Source: a virus
Virus record (IMG/VR): IMGVR_UViG_3300031553_000008
Span: 1-42,687 of that record
Direction: 5' to 3' (one strand)
Length of the DNA stretch: 42,687 nucleotides
The translations under genes and the position numbers were made by a program. The notes under the pieces are model-generated. The model saw only the letters and a list, made by a program, of their open reading frames with translations. It was not told the origin of the DNA and ran no database searches. Positions 1,341 through 38,936 of the stretch are shown here, in pieces (within the stretch, counting starts at the first letter, position 1; every line of letters starts with the position of its first letter).

Positions 1341-3554
1341 CTAATACAAGTCAGTTCCTACAGGGATTTGAAGTTTACCTAAATTAAATATCTTCTGGTT
1401 GCTCATGTCGAGCATAACCTCTACATCCACCTTTGTTGAGGTAATTTGCATAGCAGGAATCCCATTAGCAGTAAACTTAAATGCCACATCAGCGTCTAGT
1501 ATAAGCAGGTTAGCGTAGCCATATATTTTGCCTTCATAAGTTTCAGCAGCAGAATAGAATTTCAGTTTATTGTCCCCATACATCTGTATTCCGCTATCGG
1601 CATCTATTACTACACCACTTTCGTTATACCACTCACCATCAACCTTTGTATAGGAGTTAAGCTCAATGTGTCCACCACTAAGGTCGGTTCTTCTTACCTT
1701 CCCATAGGTGCTTCCTTCACCAATATCGTCTAAATCTCCAGACACCTCACTTAGCACAATTCTTCCAGCACTAATGCAAGTAGATAATACTTTGCCGTAT
1801 GTTCCATCTGGAAGTTTATCAAGTAGTCCTGACAAGTGTATTACATCTGCAGTTATTAAAGGTTCCTTTCCGTAAGAAGGGATAACTGTGGCATAAGTAG
1901 AAGCATCACTTCCTTTCTGCACTAAGCAAAGTAGTCCAGTTTCCAGTGTTACCTTAGATAGATAATCTTTAGTCTTTTGAATAGCAGTATTGCCTACCTC
2001 GAAGTATAAATACCACACATCAGAGTCAGGAATGTTGTATGAGCCAGCGCTAATCTTCTGGCTAGACCCATCATAGAACTTAATAGTTCCAGCTTCCCAA
2101 CTGACAGTATCCTGGTCATCTGCTACAAAGTGAATATCGTGGTGGTAACCTTGAATAGCTTTAGGTATCACCCAACTGTAGTATCCAACTCCAGGAATAA
2201 CTGGTGGGACTATGTTAGGAGCTGGCATATCCTTGCCACCTGGGATTCCTTCACTACCTGTGAGGTTGCCTAGCTCTAATGTTATCCTATAAACTCCAGA
2301 CTCCCATTCTCTAATTATACCTCCAACCCAGCCATAGTAAGTAATATCATTCCTGGAGTCTATAATCTTAATGTAATCAAATAACTCCTGTCCTACATTC
2401 ATCGGAGCTATTATCTGTCCAGCAGCGCTATTCCACTGAGACCGAGATAGCTCAGCAGCAGCCCTATCATTAGCTTCACTATCACTTTCGAGATTCTCAG
2501 CAGAGATAAACTTAGTCACAGCTATATCCCGAAACTGAGCTATAGCAGCTGCATCTTCGGCAGAGCCTTTATGTCCCCCTTCACCATCTACGCAGATGAC
2601 TCTATTAGGAAGTATCAGGCTCAGGTCTCTTATATCTACATAAAAGGCATGAGCGGAGTCGTATGTATAAACTTCATCTCCAGGAGTCTCGTCAACCTCA
2701 AACAGATGCAGGTCCTCATCGTTCTCAATCCTAAAGCCGCACTTAGTCATTCTGAGCAGGTCTTGAGCTAAATTCAGAAAGCTAGTCTGCCCCATAGTTG
2801 TAGATAGTGTAGGCTTGTAAGTGTCCACAATCCCATCAGTCTCATCTATATCTACATCTACGCTGATACTGTTGAATATCTGGTCTAGGATATTCTCTAC
2901 AGTTAGCGTCCTGACGTCCCAGTTATAGGCTGGACCTGAGCTACTACCGACTATTCCCTGGGAATCAATAGTGATGTAGTTACTGACGTTCTTTTCAGCT
3001 TTCTCTCCATCCACGAACTTTCCAGACACATCTCCTACATGGACATAGTCTGCACCAACTAAGATAACAGTTCCAGTTGCTCCTGAGGTCTCTCCAGTTA
3101 GAGTATCACTTATGGATAGACTTCCTGTAATTGTCCCAGCAAGTTTGGTTCCTCCAACTCCAACATTGAGCAGCGATAGTATGTTCCATACATCTATACA
3201 GATTAGCTCTACTTGGTTCTGCCCCTCCGAAGATAATTCTCTGTCTGAGAAAACCCAAAGTGGTGGAGCTGTGCCTGCATCCCCACCTACACCTTCAAAC
3301 CAGTAGTTAATCTCAACTCGCCTACCTCTAAAGTCTATATCCTTGAGGGACTTGTCATAGTTGTTCAGCACAATGGTAGCAGTACCGCCGAAAGGACGCT
3401 CTATATGTTCAACAGAGATAATCTCATCACTGAGGGAACTAAAACTATAATCTGGGTCTCCACTAGGACCTATATCTATCTTGATATAAGGCTCAGTGAA
3501 ATCAGCTTGCTGAGCTTCTAGTAAACTACCTTCACCGCTTCCTAAATCTCTCAT
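1341..3554 (-). CDS. Large tail/fibre-type virion protein
   Basis: This 737-aa protein begins with a beta-rich region (EPYIKIDIGPSGDPDYSF, later EINYWF and VELICIDVWNIL) that looks like phage tail or baseplate structural proteins. Around residue 150 it has a TGETSGATGTV module, and a related module (TGATSGATGYV) occurs in the neighbouring 179-aa protein. The C-terminal third has Gly-rich strands typical of fibres. It overlaps the next gene upstream by four bases and belongs to the late operon. A receptor-binding or tail-appendage role is plausible, but I do not recognise a named family. Confidence 0.65.
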   Translation of the reverse strand: MRDLGSGEGSLLEAQQADFTEPYIKIDIGPSGDPDYSFSSLSDEIISVEHIERPFGGTATIVLNNYDKSLKDIDFRGRRVEINYWFEGVGGDAGTAPPLWVFSDRELSSEGQNQVELICIDVWNILSLLNVGVGGTKLAGTITGSLSISDTLTGETSGATGTVILVGADYVHVGDVSGKFVDGEKAEKNVSNYITIDSQGIVGSSSGPAYNWDVRTLTVENILDQIFNSISVDVDIDETDGIVDTYKPTLSTTMGQTSFLNLAQDLLRMTKCGFRIENDEDLHLFEVDETPGDEVYTYDSAHAFYVDIRDLSLILPNRVICVDGEGGHKGSAEDAAAIAQFRDIAVTKFISAENLESDSEANDRAAAELSRSQWNSAAGQIIAPMNVGQELFDYIKIIDSRNDITYYGWVGGIIREWESGVYRITLELGNLTGSEGIPGGKDMPAPNIVPPVIPGVGYYSWVIPKAIQGYHHDIHFVADDQDTVSWEAGTIKFYDGSSQKISAGSYNIPDSDVWYLYFEVGNTAIQKTKDYLSKVTLETGLLCLVQKGSDASTYATVIPSYGKEPLITADVIHLSGLLDKLPDGTYGKVLSTCISAGRIVLSEVSGDLDDIGEGSTYGKVRRTDLSGGHIELNSYTKVDGEWYNESGVVIDADSGIQMYGDNKLKFYSAAETYEGKIYGYANLLILDADVAFKFTANGIPAMQITSTKVDVEVMLDMSNQKIFNLGKLQIPVGTDLY

Positions 3555-4090
3555 AATCCTTTTTCTACCTCAAAACCAAAAGATGCTATACTTGTTTTTA
3601 TCCCAGCTTCAACGCCATCTAAGACTGTTACTTCACAAGGATACCATCCCTCAACTGGAACGGCATCAGTGTCATAGAAGTAATCATAAATTCCTGTCTC
3701 ACTCTCATGCTTTGACATAGCTGCATCTTCAAGGACAGATGTTGTTGTAGATGTTCCTGTGCCAGTATCTTCTATCGTTTCGCCAGATTGCCACACACCA
3801 GTCACACGCTGGAGCTCAAGAGTCACTCCACCATCAGGTGTAGATTTGACGTATCCTGTAGCTCCTGAAGTTGCTCCTGTTACAACCAAACCAGCAGTAA
3901 AACTTGCGCTGCTGCTAACACCAATATAACCTGCTTTCTTCAATTTGTTAGGGTCAGTAATATTAACTTCAATCGGATGGTCTGTATTGGTAGGGTCAGT
4001 GAGTTCATCTGTCTCAGGGTCATAAACCTTAGCTTGAATCCAAACTGTAGACCTGCTAATAAACTTAGTCGTAATCTCTATATTAGCCAT
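3551..4090 (-). CDS. Beta-rich virion protein with TSGATG module
   Basis: The 179-aa product opens with Ig-like strands (TVWIQAKVYDPETDELTDP). It carries one TSGATG-containing repeat at about residues 70-110 with the pattern VxGATSGATGxV followed by a GETI strand, and it ends with strands containing WYPCEVTVLDG. The module is shared with the adjacent 737-aa protein, so the two probably act in the same appendage or were built from a common module. The start has a GGAGG site. Exact function unknown. Confidence 0.6.
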   Translation of the reverse strand: MANIEITTKFISRSTVWIQAKVYDPETDELTDPTNTDHPIEVNITDPNKLKKAGYIGVSSSASFTAGLVVTGATSGATGYVKSTPDGGVTLELQRVTGVWQSGETIEDTGTGTSTTTSVLEDAAMSKHESETGIYDYFYDTDAVPVEGWYPCEVTVLDGVEAGIKTSIASFGFEVEKGL

Positions 4091-9237: not shown

Positions 9238-10269
9238 TTATGCCGCTGTTACCGCAGCAGTACTCTCGACATCGAAGATACGACCAAGGCAGAGTTTACT
9301 GCCCAGCAGTGGGGAAGTATAGGTAACTAGCCTAATTCCCTTGGCATCGTAGTTCTCCAGCTTGTCGAAGTATTCGACCTTATACAGCTTGTTCACCATC
9401 TCAGGATTGCCGTAAGCCATGCAGAGTCCAGGCTCCTGATTGAAGATGTCGCCAAACTTTATACCGAAGATGGAGTAGTTGGTCTCAGCAGCGTTAACAG
9501 TTCTGAGGTCAGAACCATCACCTACATTAGGGTCTTCAGGTCTCAGGTAGTCACTCCTGATGATAGGAACTCCGTCGAAGTAAGCGATTCTTCCACCTTC
9601 GCTATTCACTCCATAGGTGATAGCGCTCAGCATCCGAGTGTTAGCTGTATAGACTATTCCACCTTCACGGTAAGCAGCATCAATTTTGCGAGCAATGGCA
9701 GTTGGCATGAAGATGGCATCACAGCCATACTTCATAGCATCAATCATTGTTCTCAGGTCAATAAGCTTCAGTCCAGCCTCGCCTCCATCTATATCCAGGT
9801 CAGTTCCAGTCTGAAGAGCCGCCAAGGCGTGGAGACCATCGTACTGCTTAGCTCCGCCATAAGTTATGTCGTTATAGATTAGTTTATGTCCTAACCTACG
9901 AAACATACCTTTCTTTATCTCCCACAGTACCTGGGCTTCATAGTTATTGATAGTCCCATATACATCAGGGATAAAGTTGTCCAAAAGGCGCTGAATGGCA
10001 CTGCGCTTTAGTTCAGTTTCCTGAGGGTCGTATTCCATACTGGAAGTCCAGACCATCTTCTCCCCGATGTCAACATCAAGAACATCAGCATCCATAACTA
10101 CTTTCTCCCGATTCCACTTAATGCTTTTACCCTTGGCAAGCACAGAAGGCATACGGTCAATCATAGGTCCGATGTAGATGTCTTCCTCGACAACACCAGG
10201 AATCAGCTGTGACTCAGTTAGCCTCTGAGCCTCAGTCAGGTCTTTCCAGTGTCCAATCACTTCTCCCAT
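9238..10269 (-). CDS. Major capsid protein
   Basis: This 343-aa protein directly follows the scaffold gene and precedes the decoration genes. Segments such as SAIQRLLDNFIPDVYGTINN, DGLHALAAL and FMPTAIARKI followed by a C-terminal GVPIIRSDYL region match the helix and strand order of HK97-fold major capsid proteins, in which a conserved DGVPI turn lies in the axial or P domain. The length is normal for the family. Expression is probably driven by the consensus promoter at 10918-10946. A TAAGGAGG site supports the ATG at 10269. Confidence 0.85.
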   Translation of the reverse strand: MGEVIGHWKDLTEAQRLTESQLIPGVVEEDIYIGPMIDRMPSVLAKGKSIKWNREKVVMDADVLDVDIGEKMVWTSSMEYDPQETELKRSAIQRLLDNFIPDVYGTINNYEAQVLWEIKKGMFRRLGHKLIYNDITYGGAKQYDGLHALAALQTGTDLDIDGGEAGLKLIDLRTMIDAMKYGCDAIFMPTAIARKIDAAYREGGIVYTANTRMLSAITYGVNSEGGRIAYFDGVPIIRSDYLRPEDPNVGDGSDLRTVNAAETNYSIFGIKFGDIFNQEPGLCMAYGNPEMVNKLYKVEYFDKLENYDAKGIRLVTYTSPLLGSKLCLGRIFDVESTAAVTAA

Positions 10270-33388: not shown

Positions 33389-34069
33389 ATGCAGATTGTA
33401 GAAGACCATCTATCTGTTAAGGCTGCATACGAGCATCTAGACAAGCTCTACCACATAAGTCAGCCACGAGAAGGAATCCACCTATCTACGGTTATATACT
33501 GCCTCACCAGGTCCTACTATGACCTAACCCTGGATGATGTAGCTCCCACTCCGCAAGAGGTTCTGCTGTTCGCTCTAGGCTACGGACTACAGGACATACT
33601 AACTCCTGAGAAAGCAGTGCTTGAGGTAGTAGAGAAGGATGGTATATTCTACAGTCCAGACTATAAGCTTAAGTTAGGGGATACTCATGACTTATACGAG
33701 CTCAAGACTACCAGAATGTCAGCTAAGAAGGGAGATGAGCATGAGTTCCCCGAAACTTGGATAGAGTATATGAAGGGCGGCTGCTTCATCCAGAATGTAA
33801 ATGAATATAGGCTAGTAGTTCTCTACATGATGGGTGATTGGAAGCCTCCCTTTCCATCTATCAAAGGCTATAACTTTACATTTACAGATGAGGAGCTGAT
33901 AGATAACTGGGGCTACATCATGGAGCGGAAAGTTATGTTAGAAGCTTCATTGCTTAGCAAGAGTCCCCCAACTCCCCGAGCGTGGTGTAAAGACTGGGAG
34001 TGTTCTCATTGTCGCTACAAGGTACTGTGTGATGCACTTAAAGTAATAGGAGATATACGAGATGAATAA
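33389..34069 (+). CDS. Cas4-like PD-(D/E)XK exonuclease
   Basis: This 226-aa RecB-family nuclease has D91 in the GIFYSPDYKL strand and E104-x-K106 in YELKTT, forming the catalytic core. One Cys (C38) near the N-terminus plus C200, C205, C208 and C214 at the C-terminus suggest an iron-sulfur cluster as in Cas4 and AddB. It would resect DNA ends during recombination or replication. The next gene but two is a Sak4-like ATPase, a usual partner. No CRISPR array is present, so the role is phage recombination, not adaptation. Confidence 0.8.
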   Translation: MQIVEDHLSVKAAYEHLDKLYHISQPREGIHLSTVIYCLTRSYYDLTLDDVAPTPQEVLLFALGYGLQDILTPEKAVLEVVEKDGIFYSPDYKLKLGDTHDLYELKTTRMSAKKGDEHEFPETWIEYMKGGCFIQNVNEYRLVVLYMMGDWKPPFPSIKGYNFTFTDEELIDNWGYIMERKVMLEASLLSKSPPTPRAWCKDWECSHCRYKVLCDALKVIGDIRDE

Positions 34070-34478
34070 TCCTGAAGCAGTAGCCTGGACTATGGCAGCT
34101 GAAGGAAGCTTTTCTATACAGAAGGTTAGAAACTCATTACAGCCAAAGATTAGTATTAACAACACTAAGCAAGAGTTTCTGGATAAGTTTCATACCATGA
34201 TAGGTTATGGTAGTACTGGAACTCACAGCTGGAATGAACGAAATCCCAATTGGAATCCTATTCATCACTGGTATATTAGCTCTCACTTGGACTGTCTTAG
34301 ATTCTGTGCTGAGGTGTATGAATTTATGCCTATTAAACAGGAGCAAGTCAAGTTAATGATTGAGTTTTGCTCCAGAGGAGTAGCTAGAGGTCATGGCTGC
34401 CAGTCTAAAGCTGAACCAAGAGACTTTGAGATATATGAGAAGATGAAAGAACTAAATAAGAGGGGAAAGGAGGTGTAG
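34062..34478 (+). CDS. LAGLIDADG homing endonuclease 1
   Basis: The N-terminal AVAWTMAAEGSF of this 138-aa protein is a diverged LAGLIDADG motif (E14 is the catalytic acid). A single motif implies a homodimer. It overlaps the end of the Cas4-like gene by eight bases and ends NKRGKEV just before the ribosome site of the next endonuclease. I found no duplicated host sequence for this copy. It likely promotes its own spread by cutting genomes that lack it. Confidence 0.75.
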   Translation: MNNPEAVAWTMAAEGSFSIQKVRNSLQPKISINNTKQEFLDKFHTMIGYGSTGTHSWNERNPNWNPIHHWYISSHLDCLRFCAEVYEFMPIKQEQVKLMIEFCSRGVARGHGCQSKAEPRDFEIYEKMKELNKRGKEV

Positions 34479-34479
34479 A

Positions 34480-34502
34480 TTGGAGAACATTGTTGCAACC
34501 AT
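34480..34502 (+). repeat. Ancestral copy of the ATPase gene start (partner at 34926-34948)
   Basis: The 23 bases at 34480-34502 and 34926-34948 encode the same ENIVAT peptide. They differ in the start codon (TTG or ATG) and at four third codon positions, all synonymous. The first copy has the better ribosome site and is stranded before the endonuclease; the second is joined to the ATPase body. Confidence 0.75.
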
Positions 34503-34926
34503 GAGTGAGACGGAGAAAGCGTATTTAGCTGGAATAGTAGACGGTGAAGGAGCTATAACTATATTGTCTAGACAGTATAGGCATAAGAATGGCAAGGTGT
34601 ATCCAGTTACGTTTCTCAGGTTGATGGTTACTAGCACTAGCCCTAAACTAATCAAGTGGTTAGGTGCTATAGGAGGTTCTACTGCCTTAAAGAATGTAGG
34701 TCCTACTGGACATTTAGGGAAGAAGCCTATATTCTACTGGGCAACAGCATCTAAACTATCTGGAGATATTCTGGAGCAAATACTGCCATACCTGATTATC
34801 AAAAAGGAGCAAGCTGAAGCAGCTATAGCTTTTCAGTCCTTGCGTAGGAAGGGAAAGAAGAGTCAGCTTGAGAAAGACCTTGATATGATGTTCAGGGACA
34901 AAGTAAATGCAAGGAGACAACTGTAA
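34480..34926 (+). CDS. LAGLIDADG homing endonuclease 2, fused to old ATPase start
   Basis: The canonical motif AYLAGIVDGEG (D21, E23) lies near the N-terminus and the protein is about 148 aa from TTG 34480 (GGAGGTG, six bases upstream). The first codons spell LENIVAT, the same as the start of the following ATPase gene, whereas the related endonuclease at 38513 lacks them. The endonuclease proper probably starts at ATG 34501. It seems to have captured the ATPase's ribosome site and first codons. One motif, so a dimer. Confidence 0.85.
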   Translation: MENIVATMSETEKAYLAGIVDGEGAITILSRQYRHKNGKVYPVTFLRLMVTSTSPKLIKWLGAIGGSTALKNVGPTGHLGKKPIFYWATASKLSGDILEQILPYLIIKKEQAEAAIAFQSLRRKGKKSQLEKDLDMMFRDKVNARRQL

Positions 34927-35711
34927 TGGAGAATATAGTGGCGACCATATGGGGAGAGGAAAAGACCAGCAAGACTACTCTCGCCCTCACCTTCCCTAAG
35001 CCTATAATCTTCTATGAGTTTGACATAGGCGGATATAACAGAGCTGCTTGGAGATTCAAAGGTCAAGACATCACTTGTAAATCTTTCATACCTCCACTTC
35101 CAATAACTAAAATGTTAGGAACTGATGGTCCTACTATCAAGTTCCCTAAGAGAGTTGAAGGGATGAAAGAGCTGTGGCGAGAGTTCCTCCAGACATATGC
35201 TGAAGACCTGCAGAACAAGAAAGTAGTTACGATGATAATTGACCCTGGAACTCAGCTGTGGACTATAGACCATCAAGGCTACCTACAGGAGAAGCAGGAG
35301 ATACAGCTGTCTAAAGGGATTAAGGAAGAGGACGACAAGTTCAGAGAGAAGCTACAGCCTCCCGAGTATGGTGAACCTAACACTAGATTCAGGAGCCTTA
35401 TATACGGAGCTAGAGGCTTCCATAAGAACCTAGTCATTGTTCACTACCCGAGAGATATATATGGTGAGAAGCTTTCAGGTGATAAGGTGCTAAGCTACAA
35501 GACTGGCAAGGTAGAGCCTGATGGCTTCAGGGAGAATAGGCGGCTGACTGATTTAGAGATGTGGACATACCTTGATGATGAGCTAGAACCCAAGCTGAAG
35601 GTAACCAAGTCTGGGCTGACTAAAGCAAGTGCTCTCCAGGGCATAGTCCTTGAGCCTAACTATGACGCTATCATGGATGCTGTGAAGATGGCGAGAGGTG
35701 AGAGTGAATGA
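34926..35711 (+). CDS. AAA_24/Sak4-like recombination ATPase
   Basis: This 261-aa RecA-fold protein has Walker A GEEKTSKTT (K16, T17) at residues 10-18 and Walker B VTMIIDP with D106. The short N-terminus and the TLALTFPKPI continuation match the phage nucleotide-binding AAA_24 family, which includes Sak4 single-strand annealing proteins. Together with the Cas4-like nuclease it forms a probable recombination pair. Its first seven codons appear to be a recoded replacement introduced with the endonuclease. Ribosome site AAGGAG, nine bases upstream. Confidence 0.78.
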   Translation: MENIVATIWGEEKTSKTTLALTFPKPIIFYEFDIGGYNRAAWRFKGQDITCKSFIPPLPITKMLGTDGPTIKFPKRVEGMKELWREFLQTYAEDLQNKKVVTMIIDPGTQLWTIDHQGYLQEKQEIQLSKGIKEEDDKFREKLQPPEYGEPNTRFRSLIYGARGFHKNLVIVHYPRDIYGEKLSGDKVLSYKTGKVEPDGFRENRRLTDLEMWTYLDDELEPKLKVTKSGLTKASALQGIVLEPNYDAIMDAVKMARGESE

Positions 35712-37695: not shown

Positions 37696-38502
37696 ATGAA
37701 GGTATTCGCAGAACACTACCCACAGGATAAGAGAGGTTGGTATCAGTTTCCCACTGATGTAGAGTGGAGGAGTCAGATATTTGCTCCTGAAGTTATGGAG
37801 CATCCAGCTAGAGCTAATCTGTATATGCTTCAAGCACTCATTGATTATGTCTCTGAACCAGGTGAAACTATAATGGACATTATGGCTGGGACTGGAAGTA
37901 TCCTAATTGCTGCTTTACCTGAAATGGACAAGCTAGTCGGAAGAAAAGTTATATGTTTAGATGTAGAGCAGCCATATTGCAACTTAATGCAAAAGACTCT
38001 TGATGTGTTAGACCTAGGAGACAGTAGTATATCTCACAATGTGACTATAATTCATGGAGACTGCAGAAAGATACTCCCACTTCCAGTTGACCACATAATC
38101 TTCAGCCCTCCTTATGCAGCGATTATGAAGACTAAAGGGACTGATAAGCTGACCAAAGAGATGGGAGCTCAGTATGACTTTGCCCAATATAGCACAAGTA
38201 AAGGAAATGTAGGACTGCTCAATGAGTTCTTCTACAATCAAGCTATGGTGAAGATTTATGAGCTGTGCTTTCAGAGTGTAAGGAGCGGTGGGACTCTGAC
38301 TATCATCATCAAAGACCACATAAGGAAAGGTGAGAGAGTATATCTATCACACTGGGCTTTGAGATGCTGTATTAAAGCAGGCTTCGAGCAGGCAGATTGG
38401 TTTAAGTGGAAACCTCAAGGAAGCTACTACCTATCCTTTAAGCGAGCAAGAGGAGAGCCCACAGTCGATGATGAGGACATGATTGTATTAAGAAAACCAT
38501 GA
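37696..38502 (+). CDS. DNA methyltransferase (N4-cytosine/N6-adenine type)
   Basis: In this 268-aa protein the AdoMet-binding motif I is MDIMAGTGS (D61 to G67), the acidic second strand is LDVEQ, and catalytic motif IV is SPPY at 137-140. SPPY rather than DPPY favours N4-cytosine methylation. No restriction enzyme is adjacent, so it is an orphan, probably protecting phage DNA. Its last 12 residues (VDDEDMIVLRKP) recur in diverged form at 38901-38936, beyond homing endonuclease 3. The current end seems to be a replacement. Confidence 0.82.
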   Translation: MKVFAEHYPQDKRGWYQFPTDVEWRSQIFAPEVMEHPARANLYMLQALIDYVSEPGETIMDIMAGTGSILIAALPEMDKLVGRKVICLDVEQPYCNLMQKTLDVLDLGDSSISHNVTIIHGDCRKILPLPVDHIIFSPPYAAIMKTKGTDKLTKEMGAQYDFAQYSTSKGNVGLLNEFFYNQAMVKIYELCFQSVRSGGTLTIIIKDHIRKGERVYLSHWALRCCIKAGFEQADWFKWKPQGSYYLSFKRARGEPTVDDEDMIVLRKP

Positions 38503-38512
38503 AGGAGGCACA

Positions 38513-38908
38513 GTGAGAACAGTTGATAAAGCTTACCTAGCTGGAATAGTAGATGGAGAGGGATACATAGGAATAATAAAATCCAAGGATAACTACTTCC
38601 TAACCTTCGCAGTGGATATGGCAGATACTCAAGCTTTAGAGCTGCTAGCTGAGGTAACTGGAAGACGTATAGAAACTGACATCAGAAAGAACTTAAGCTA
38701 TAAAATTCAACATAGGGTTAGGCTAGGAGGAGTGGATGCTCAGAACTTCTTAAGAGAGATATTACCATATCTTAGGGTGAAGAAGAATCTAGCTGAGCTA
38801 GCTATAGAGTATCCAATAGGCAACAAAGGAGCATTACCTCCAGAGACCAAAAATCTTCAAGCTATTCTATTCGGGTTGTTTAAGACAATGAATAAAAGAG
38901 GTAGATGA
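38513..38908 (+). CDS. LAGLIDADG homing endonuclease 3
   Basis: This 131-aa protein starts at GTG 38513, behind AAGGAGG, with AYLAGIVDGEGYIG at residues 7-20 (D14, E16). It is closely related to endonuclease 2 in motif and layout. It sits exactly at the end of the methyltransferase gene, between two versions of that gene's last codons. Its own end (NKRGR*) overlaps the old methyltransferase end in another frame. Single motif, so a homodimer is expected. Confidence 0.85.
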   Translation: MRTVDKAYLAGIVDGEGYIGIIKSKDNYFLTFAVDMADTQALELLAEVTGRRIETDIRKNLSYKIQHRVRLGGVDAQNFLREILPYLRVKKNLAELAIEYPIGNKGALPPETKNLQAILFGLFKTMNKRGR

Positions 38909-38936
38909 AGATTTGATTATAGTGAGGAAACCATGA
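38901..38936 (+). pseudogene. Stranded ancestral end of the methyltransferase gene
   Basis: Reading frame VDEDLIIVRKP* is equivalent to the present methyltransferase end VDDEDMIVLRKP*, with many codon changes. Its TGA overlaps the next gene's ATG as ATGA, the junction style used throughout this operon, so this looks like the original end before the endonuclease arrived. Confidence 0.75.

Follow-up and report, generated by a model that had tools for sequence, protein, structure and literature searches.

We found that a Sak4-like ATPase gene and the homing endonuclease gene next to it (HEG2) begin with the same seven-codon head in two different spellings. The two genes lie in a virus record of 42,687 bases, the whole of which is called the window here. 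We consider it likely, with a probability of about 0.7, that HEG2 supplies the nuclease for a homing cassette that carries a replacement head for its target gene; the cleavage, immunity and mobility of the cassette, and the direction of replacement in the window, are inferred. This interpretation is supported for a class of such arrangements and is likely for this window. Table 1 lists the features on which it rests.

Table 1. Features of the window around the ATPase head and the methyltransferase tail
Feature	Position	Strand	Basis
Upstream gene	33389..34069	+	Synteny: its end and the ATPase start overlap in many uninvaded relatives
HEG1, second LAGLIDADG-like gene, directly upstream of HEG2	34062..34478	+	phrog_5046, 5e-13; alignment
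Inferred old ATPase translation start region, now HEG2's (ribosome site GGAGGTG, 34469-34475)	34462..34479	+	Sequence; similar AAAAGGAGGTG before the L028 ATPase start
Copy 1, putative remnant ATPase head (TTG-ENIVAT plus AT)	34480..34502	+	18/23 identity to copy 2
HEG2 frame, in which the ATPase head continues in frame into an I-CreI/I-MsoI-type LAGLIDADG endonuclease	34480..34926	+	PHROG 5046, profile, model
New ATPase ribosome site AAGGAG, within the end of HEG2	34911..34916	+	Sequence; 9 nt before ATG
Copy 2, head of the working ATPase gene with silent re-spelling	34926..34948	+	Comparison with copy 1
Sak4-like AAA_24 ATPase gene, putative insertion target	34926..35711	+	AAA_24, phrog_124, relatives L001-L022 and L027-L068
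CCATATGG, an 8-bp perfect palindrome with its centre at the inferred insertion point (34502/34949, empty site)	34945..34952	+	Sequence
Working methyltransferase tail, DEDMIVLRKP-stop	38470..38502	+	26/33 nt identical to 38904-38936
HEG3, mirror of the HEG2 case, located at a gene end	38513..38908	+	Sequence, PHROG search, alignment
Distal methyltransferase tail remnant, DEDLIIVRKP-stop	38904..38936	+	Score of 44 in the anchored tail test (null maximum 22)

The two heads, TTGGAGAACATTGTTGCAACCAT (copy 1) and ATGGAGAATATAGTGGCGACCAT (copy 2), form the very beginnings of two neighbouring genes and are read in frame in both, HEG2 starting with TTG-ENIVAT and the downstream ATPase gene with ATG-ENIVAT. 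The five differences between them fall on the first base of the start codon and on the third bases of the codons for N, I, V and A, and all four third-position differences are silent. A repeat finder reported the pair as a 22-nt direct repeat (34481-34502/34927-34948). Each copy is preceded by its own ribosome site, the GGAGG core of the first (34469-34473) lying 6 nt upstream of the TTG.

With only seven codons involved, the two gene starts might resemble each other by chance, and a cruder wide-window test indeed gave the pair a score of only 31 (p ~0.03). However, the probability of ENIVAT by composition is ~5e-8, and when the 1.4-kb region was shuffled 2000 times under a Markov model, the best match to copy 2 was 17/23, reached in 5 shuffles, with 18 in none. 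In a test anchored at the gene starts of 58 HEG loci, the window pair scored 33, whereas the 99% null was 21. The recurrence of such duplications at other host genes, described below, also speaks against chance, which we regard as a very improbable explanation. The duplicated head with its silent differences, first described in an earlier note on this DNA, is real.

The earlier note had also assigned the ENIVAT peptide to the ATPase, with the related HEG3 as an endonuclease that has no such extension, and this assignment was borne out. Judged from the alignments, ENIVAT is ATPase sequence and lies outside the endonuclease core shared by the HEG relatives, because relatives without HEG2 share the first strand of the ATPase and related HEGs have no extension. 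The ATPases of uninvaded relatives begin with MIAATWG (L027), MIVAIWG (L028) and MITALWG (L029), which represent the same first strand (IVAIxG), and the wider family begins with M..DDYLGIVAICGDEGT or M..DD-YLG-IVAICGDEGT. An unrelated start peptide, one of the observations that the earlier note had named as refuting its reading, was not found in these relatives. HEG3 and the HEGs of L028 and L068 start directly at the nuclease core, which in HEG2 begins at about 34501.

The assignment of the gene itself to the Sak4-like AAA_24 ATPases has only modest sequence support. It matched AAA_24 at 1.4e-5 (25.5 bits, just under the Pfam cut-off of 27) and the Sak4-like phrog_124 at 2.6e-4. About 40 relatives, 33-51% identical, were found in viral contigs and only one (L068) in genome_contigs, while a tblastn search of annotated phage records (1e-5) returned no relative of either the ATPase or HEG2.

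By sequence and predicted fold, HEG2 is an I-CreI/I-MsoI-type LAGLIDADG enzyme, and its cleavage activity is inferred. A profile of 60 HEG2 relatives matched I-MsoI (1.4e-28) and I-CreI (4e-13) in the PDB. The AlphaFold model had a mean pLDDT of 90.6, and its top Foldseek matches were I-CreI, I-CvuI and I-MsoI (E ~1e-6, TM ~0.6). HEG2 shares with these three enzymes the fold, the length and a single LAGLIDADG motif, AYLAGIVDGEG, in which D21 and G24 are invariant and E23 is nearly invariant among the 60 relatives. However, I-CreI, I-MsoI and I-CvuI are enzymes of organellar group I introns, whereas HEG2 lies outside any intron.

Enzymes of the I-CreI type are dimers that act on near-palindromic sites of roughly 22 bp. 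The palindrome CCATATGG at the junction is a suggestive candidate for the centre of the HEG2 target; it would occur there by chance in 1 of 256 cases, there are no cleavage data, and the octamer persists in copy 2. Since copy 2 retains CCATATGG together with 13 of the 17 bases left of the junction, its immunity to HEG2 cleavage is inferred and remains unproven. The empty site proposed in the earlier note needed one correction. Its start at 34462-34502 stood, but a join of 34502 to 34947 would repeat AT, and the correct join is 34502/34949 or 34500/34947.

In the mechanism that we propose, HEG2 and a replacement, re-spelled first segment of the ATPase gene would form one homing cassette. An I-CreI-type homodimer may cut the uninterrupted ATPase gene around ..GTTGCAACCAT/ATGGGG.., and repair against an occupied phage genome would then copy in HEG2 and the new head that lie between; both steps are inferred. 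The cassette would have entered right after codon 7, leaving upstream the old start and its strong ribosome site, which now drive HEG2. This anatomy is observed, whereas its direction is inferred. The body of the ATPase gene would be completed by the re-spelled head at the right end of the cassette, with its own ribosome site. Re-spelling would keep the protein intact, break up the target and leave no long identical repeat by which the HEG could be recombined away. The replacement head would most likely be a divergent allele from another phage; foreign-phage origin and selected silent change are both possible sources of the spelling difference, and the question is open. In the version at gene ends, at HEG3 and in the capsid genes described below, the cut would fall near the end of the gene, the cassette would be inserted there, the native end would become the far-side remnant, and the replacement would complete the gene.

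The opposite direction has to be considered, in which the HEG brought a foreign ATPase start as a leader (copy 1) and settled upstream of an untouched native ATPase gene (copy 2). This reading is not ruled out by the window on its own. The HEG frame runs on directly from copy 1, and the L028 ATPase has the Ile codon ATA as in copy 2, together with the codons GTT GCA and a AAAGGAGGTG-like ribosome site as in copy 1. Copy 2 uses the rare Ala codon GCG (26/564), and codon typicality leaned to copy 1 as the native head by only 0.5-1.4 log units, which is weak. The age order of the two window copies is undecidable because the nearest ATPases are only 45-51% identical, and at that distance the other refuting observation of the earlier note, uninvaded relatives with the exact bases of copy 2, gave no verdict.

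Analogous loci nevertheless argue against a foreign leader. In L085, GC3 was 0.86 in the remnant on the HEG side and 0.39 in the working head, compared with 0.75-0.93 in most of the gene body, 0.83 in the terminase gene and 0.87 in the portal gene; the HEG-side copy is thus native in composition and the working copy is not. The duplicated capsid tails of L201 and L197 were compared with 42 close relatives, nearly all without a detected second tail; these relatives are not independent, and one of them, L026, has a HEG after its own capsid gene. The remnant tail was nearer than the working tail to 41 of the 42 relatives in L201. In L197 the remnant was nearer to 28 of 42 and the working tail to 13 of 42, and those nearer to the remnant included L335, L272 and L268-L271, whose body sequences rank among the closest. 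These signs, which are drawn from sequence comparison, suggest that the copy joined to the working gene is the foreign or recoded one, clearly in L085 (GC3), also in L201 and less clearly in L197 (uninvaded relatives), and the direction was the same in all three genes. The earlier proposal that the gene body carries the recoded end therefore fared well in L085 and L201 and less clearly in L197, while the window itself gave only the weak codon-typicality lean. We regard a foreign leader as unlikely and favor a replacement head.

These loci belong to a survey in which HEG relatives were gathered from two scans (94 HEGs in the first pass) and the flanking DNA of 149 distinct HEGs was compared, with mismatched pairs as the control. 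Most of the 149 HEGs had no duplicated ends, so that the arrangement is a minority form, and no convincing duplicated ends were found at the HEGs of named phages (Sushi23, Samisti12, Faust, Gilson, CcrRogue, HVTV-1, Gordonia phages and others). In L085, the head of a PAPS-reductase-like gene (phrog_424) is present twice over a length of 28 codons; the two heads share 27 residues, and beyond the start codon they differ silently at 22 codons and non-silently at none. The major capsid protein genes of L197 and L201 each have a 21-residue tail twice. Weaker cases were the heads in L109, L116 and L024 and the tails in L075 and L090. Candidate repeats in L103, L126 and L133 failed at the codon level.

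Duplicated ends could also arise without any import or recoding, by local tandem duplication of a gene end at an imprecise HEG insertion, followed by drift. Short repeats are common around inserts, and the L109 heads and the methyltransferase tail of the window also carry amino-acid changes. Drift in a non-functional copy, however, would not be only silent: the probability that ENIVAT stays unchanged after four random substitutions is 0.001, and beyond the start codon the L085 heads differ at 22 silently changed codons against none that are non-silent. A further argument against local duplication is that the step in composition in L085 stops close to the head that is doubled. We consider this explanation quite improbable and retain the replacement head as the preferred reading.

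The earlier note had described the duplicated head as the mirror of a methyltransferase case at HEG3, and that case proved sound: the methyltransferase tail is doubled around HEG3, with the identity and the anchored score given in Table 1. In L006, a truncated HEG remnant (9801-9910) directly follows the methyltransferase stop, the place that HEG3 holds in the window. In L184 (Mycobacterium phage DotProduct), the methyltransferase frame is open across a stretch (1610-3601) with a LAGLIDADG HEG in another frame, and annotations of Gordonia relatives give the methyltransferase either in joined form or as a gene of its own.

Gene splits in L003, L013, L018 and L019 were rejected as HEG duplications; their frames are open through the insert, and they were taken as inteins. 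The apparent inteins have LAGLIDADG-like domains (L003 9192-9928, L013 4023-4687, L018 5061-5803 and L019 1830-2599). Intein host genes in relatives are the upstream gene, the methyltransferase and an HHH gene, so genes of the same neighbourhood are also intein targets.

The upstream gene had no Pfam or PHROG match. Its end is overlapped by HEG1, and two HEGs in tandem precede the ATPase gene. HEG1 has a divergent motif, TMAAEG, and no terminal duplication was seen in it. In the wider phage family, the last codons of the upstream gene overlap the ATPase start (..TTATGGxxTAG), and other inserted genes are common at this overlap, among them a MazG-like gene in L061 and small unknown ORFs. Genes inserted at this junction use the old overlapping start and the ATPase has a new one, which makes the junction a hot spot beyond HEGs (L061 2124-2480, L006 4626-4820, L003 4714, and L004, L010, L014, L032, L045 and L068).

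Orthologous HEGs at the junction of the upstream gene and the ATPase in L002 (1819-2280) and L063 (2008-2487) begin with MGLDNIS, like the ATPase starts MGLDN.. or MGLDD.. of relatives. From this likeness they may represent a second invasion of the same ATPase start, but they give only weak support because the overlap of the upstream gene also fixes the first codons. HEGs also lie close to members of this ATPase family in L029 (just downstream, 3277-3723) and in L126 (just upstream, 3019-3513), and neither has a clearly duplicated end.

The survival of important phage genes after invasion by free-standing HEGs, and the immunity of the carriers to their own enzyme, are usually explained by distant cutting and co-conversion. 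Free-standing enzymes of the T4 type cleave at a distance of hundreds or thousands of bases from their own gene and depend on co-conversion (PMC2988022). HEG2 resembles them as an intron-free HEG between phage genes, whereas its remnant head suggests, without a cleavage map, an insertion inside the target gene itself.

Mobile endonuclease ORFs in the mitochondria of Glomus bring a foreign C-terminal part to atp6, atp9, cox2 and nad3, and the displaced native part persists as a remnant beyond the ORF; for atp6, identity between the two ends is 63.5% at the DNA level and 91% at the protein level (PMC3630166). The same kind of hybrid in Allomyces atp6 is cited there. The fungal and phage forms share an endonuclease ORF flanked by two ends of the target gene. 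However, the fungal hybrids are mitochondrial and replace 3' ends, whereas the phage cases include both 5' heads and 3' tails. HEG3 with the methyltransferase meets the 3' criterion; the ATPase case is at a 5' end and, unlike the fungal hybrids, has the remnant start fused to the HEG. A literature search limited to open-licence papers found no description of a phage precedent or of the 5' form.

The duplicated, silently re-spelled gene ends show where the insertion lies and supply one candidate target per enzyme, so that invasion and immunity could be tested with purified protein. If the proposed reading is true, the mitochondrial arrangement would extend to phages and to gene starts. We suggest only tentatively, at somewhat less than even odds, that phages have a home-and-rescue class in which I-CreI-type endonucleases move together with a short recoded segment from the 5' or 3' end of an important phage gene, the silent re-spelling being selected for carrier immunity with the protein unchanged. 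The proposed reading, if true, would also provide natural counterparts of engineered recoded-rescue drives and would indicate how much re-spelling nature uses. In engineered Cleave-and-Rescue, a nuclease is paired with an essential-gene copy that has been recoded and resists cleavage (PMC7951863), and home-and-rescue drives likewise link a nuclease to a recoded version of the target gene (PMC7968924, PMC7951863). The rescue drives are engineered, use Cas9 and operate in insects, whereas the phage form is natural and short, with its cleavage resistance inferred. By this analogy, the HEG2 arrangement resembles a natural home-and-rescue gene drive.
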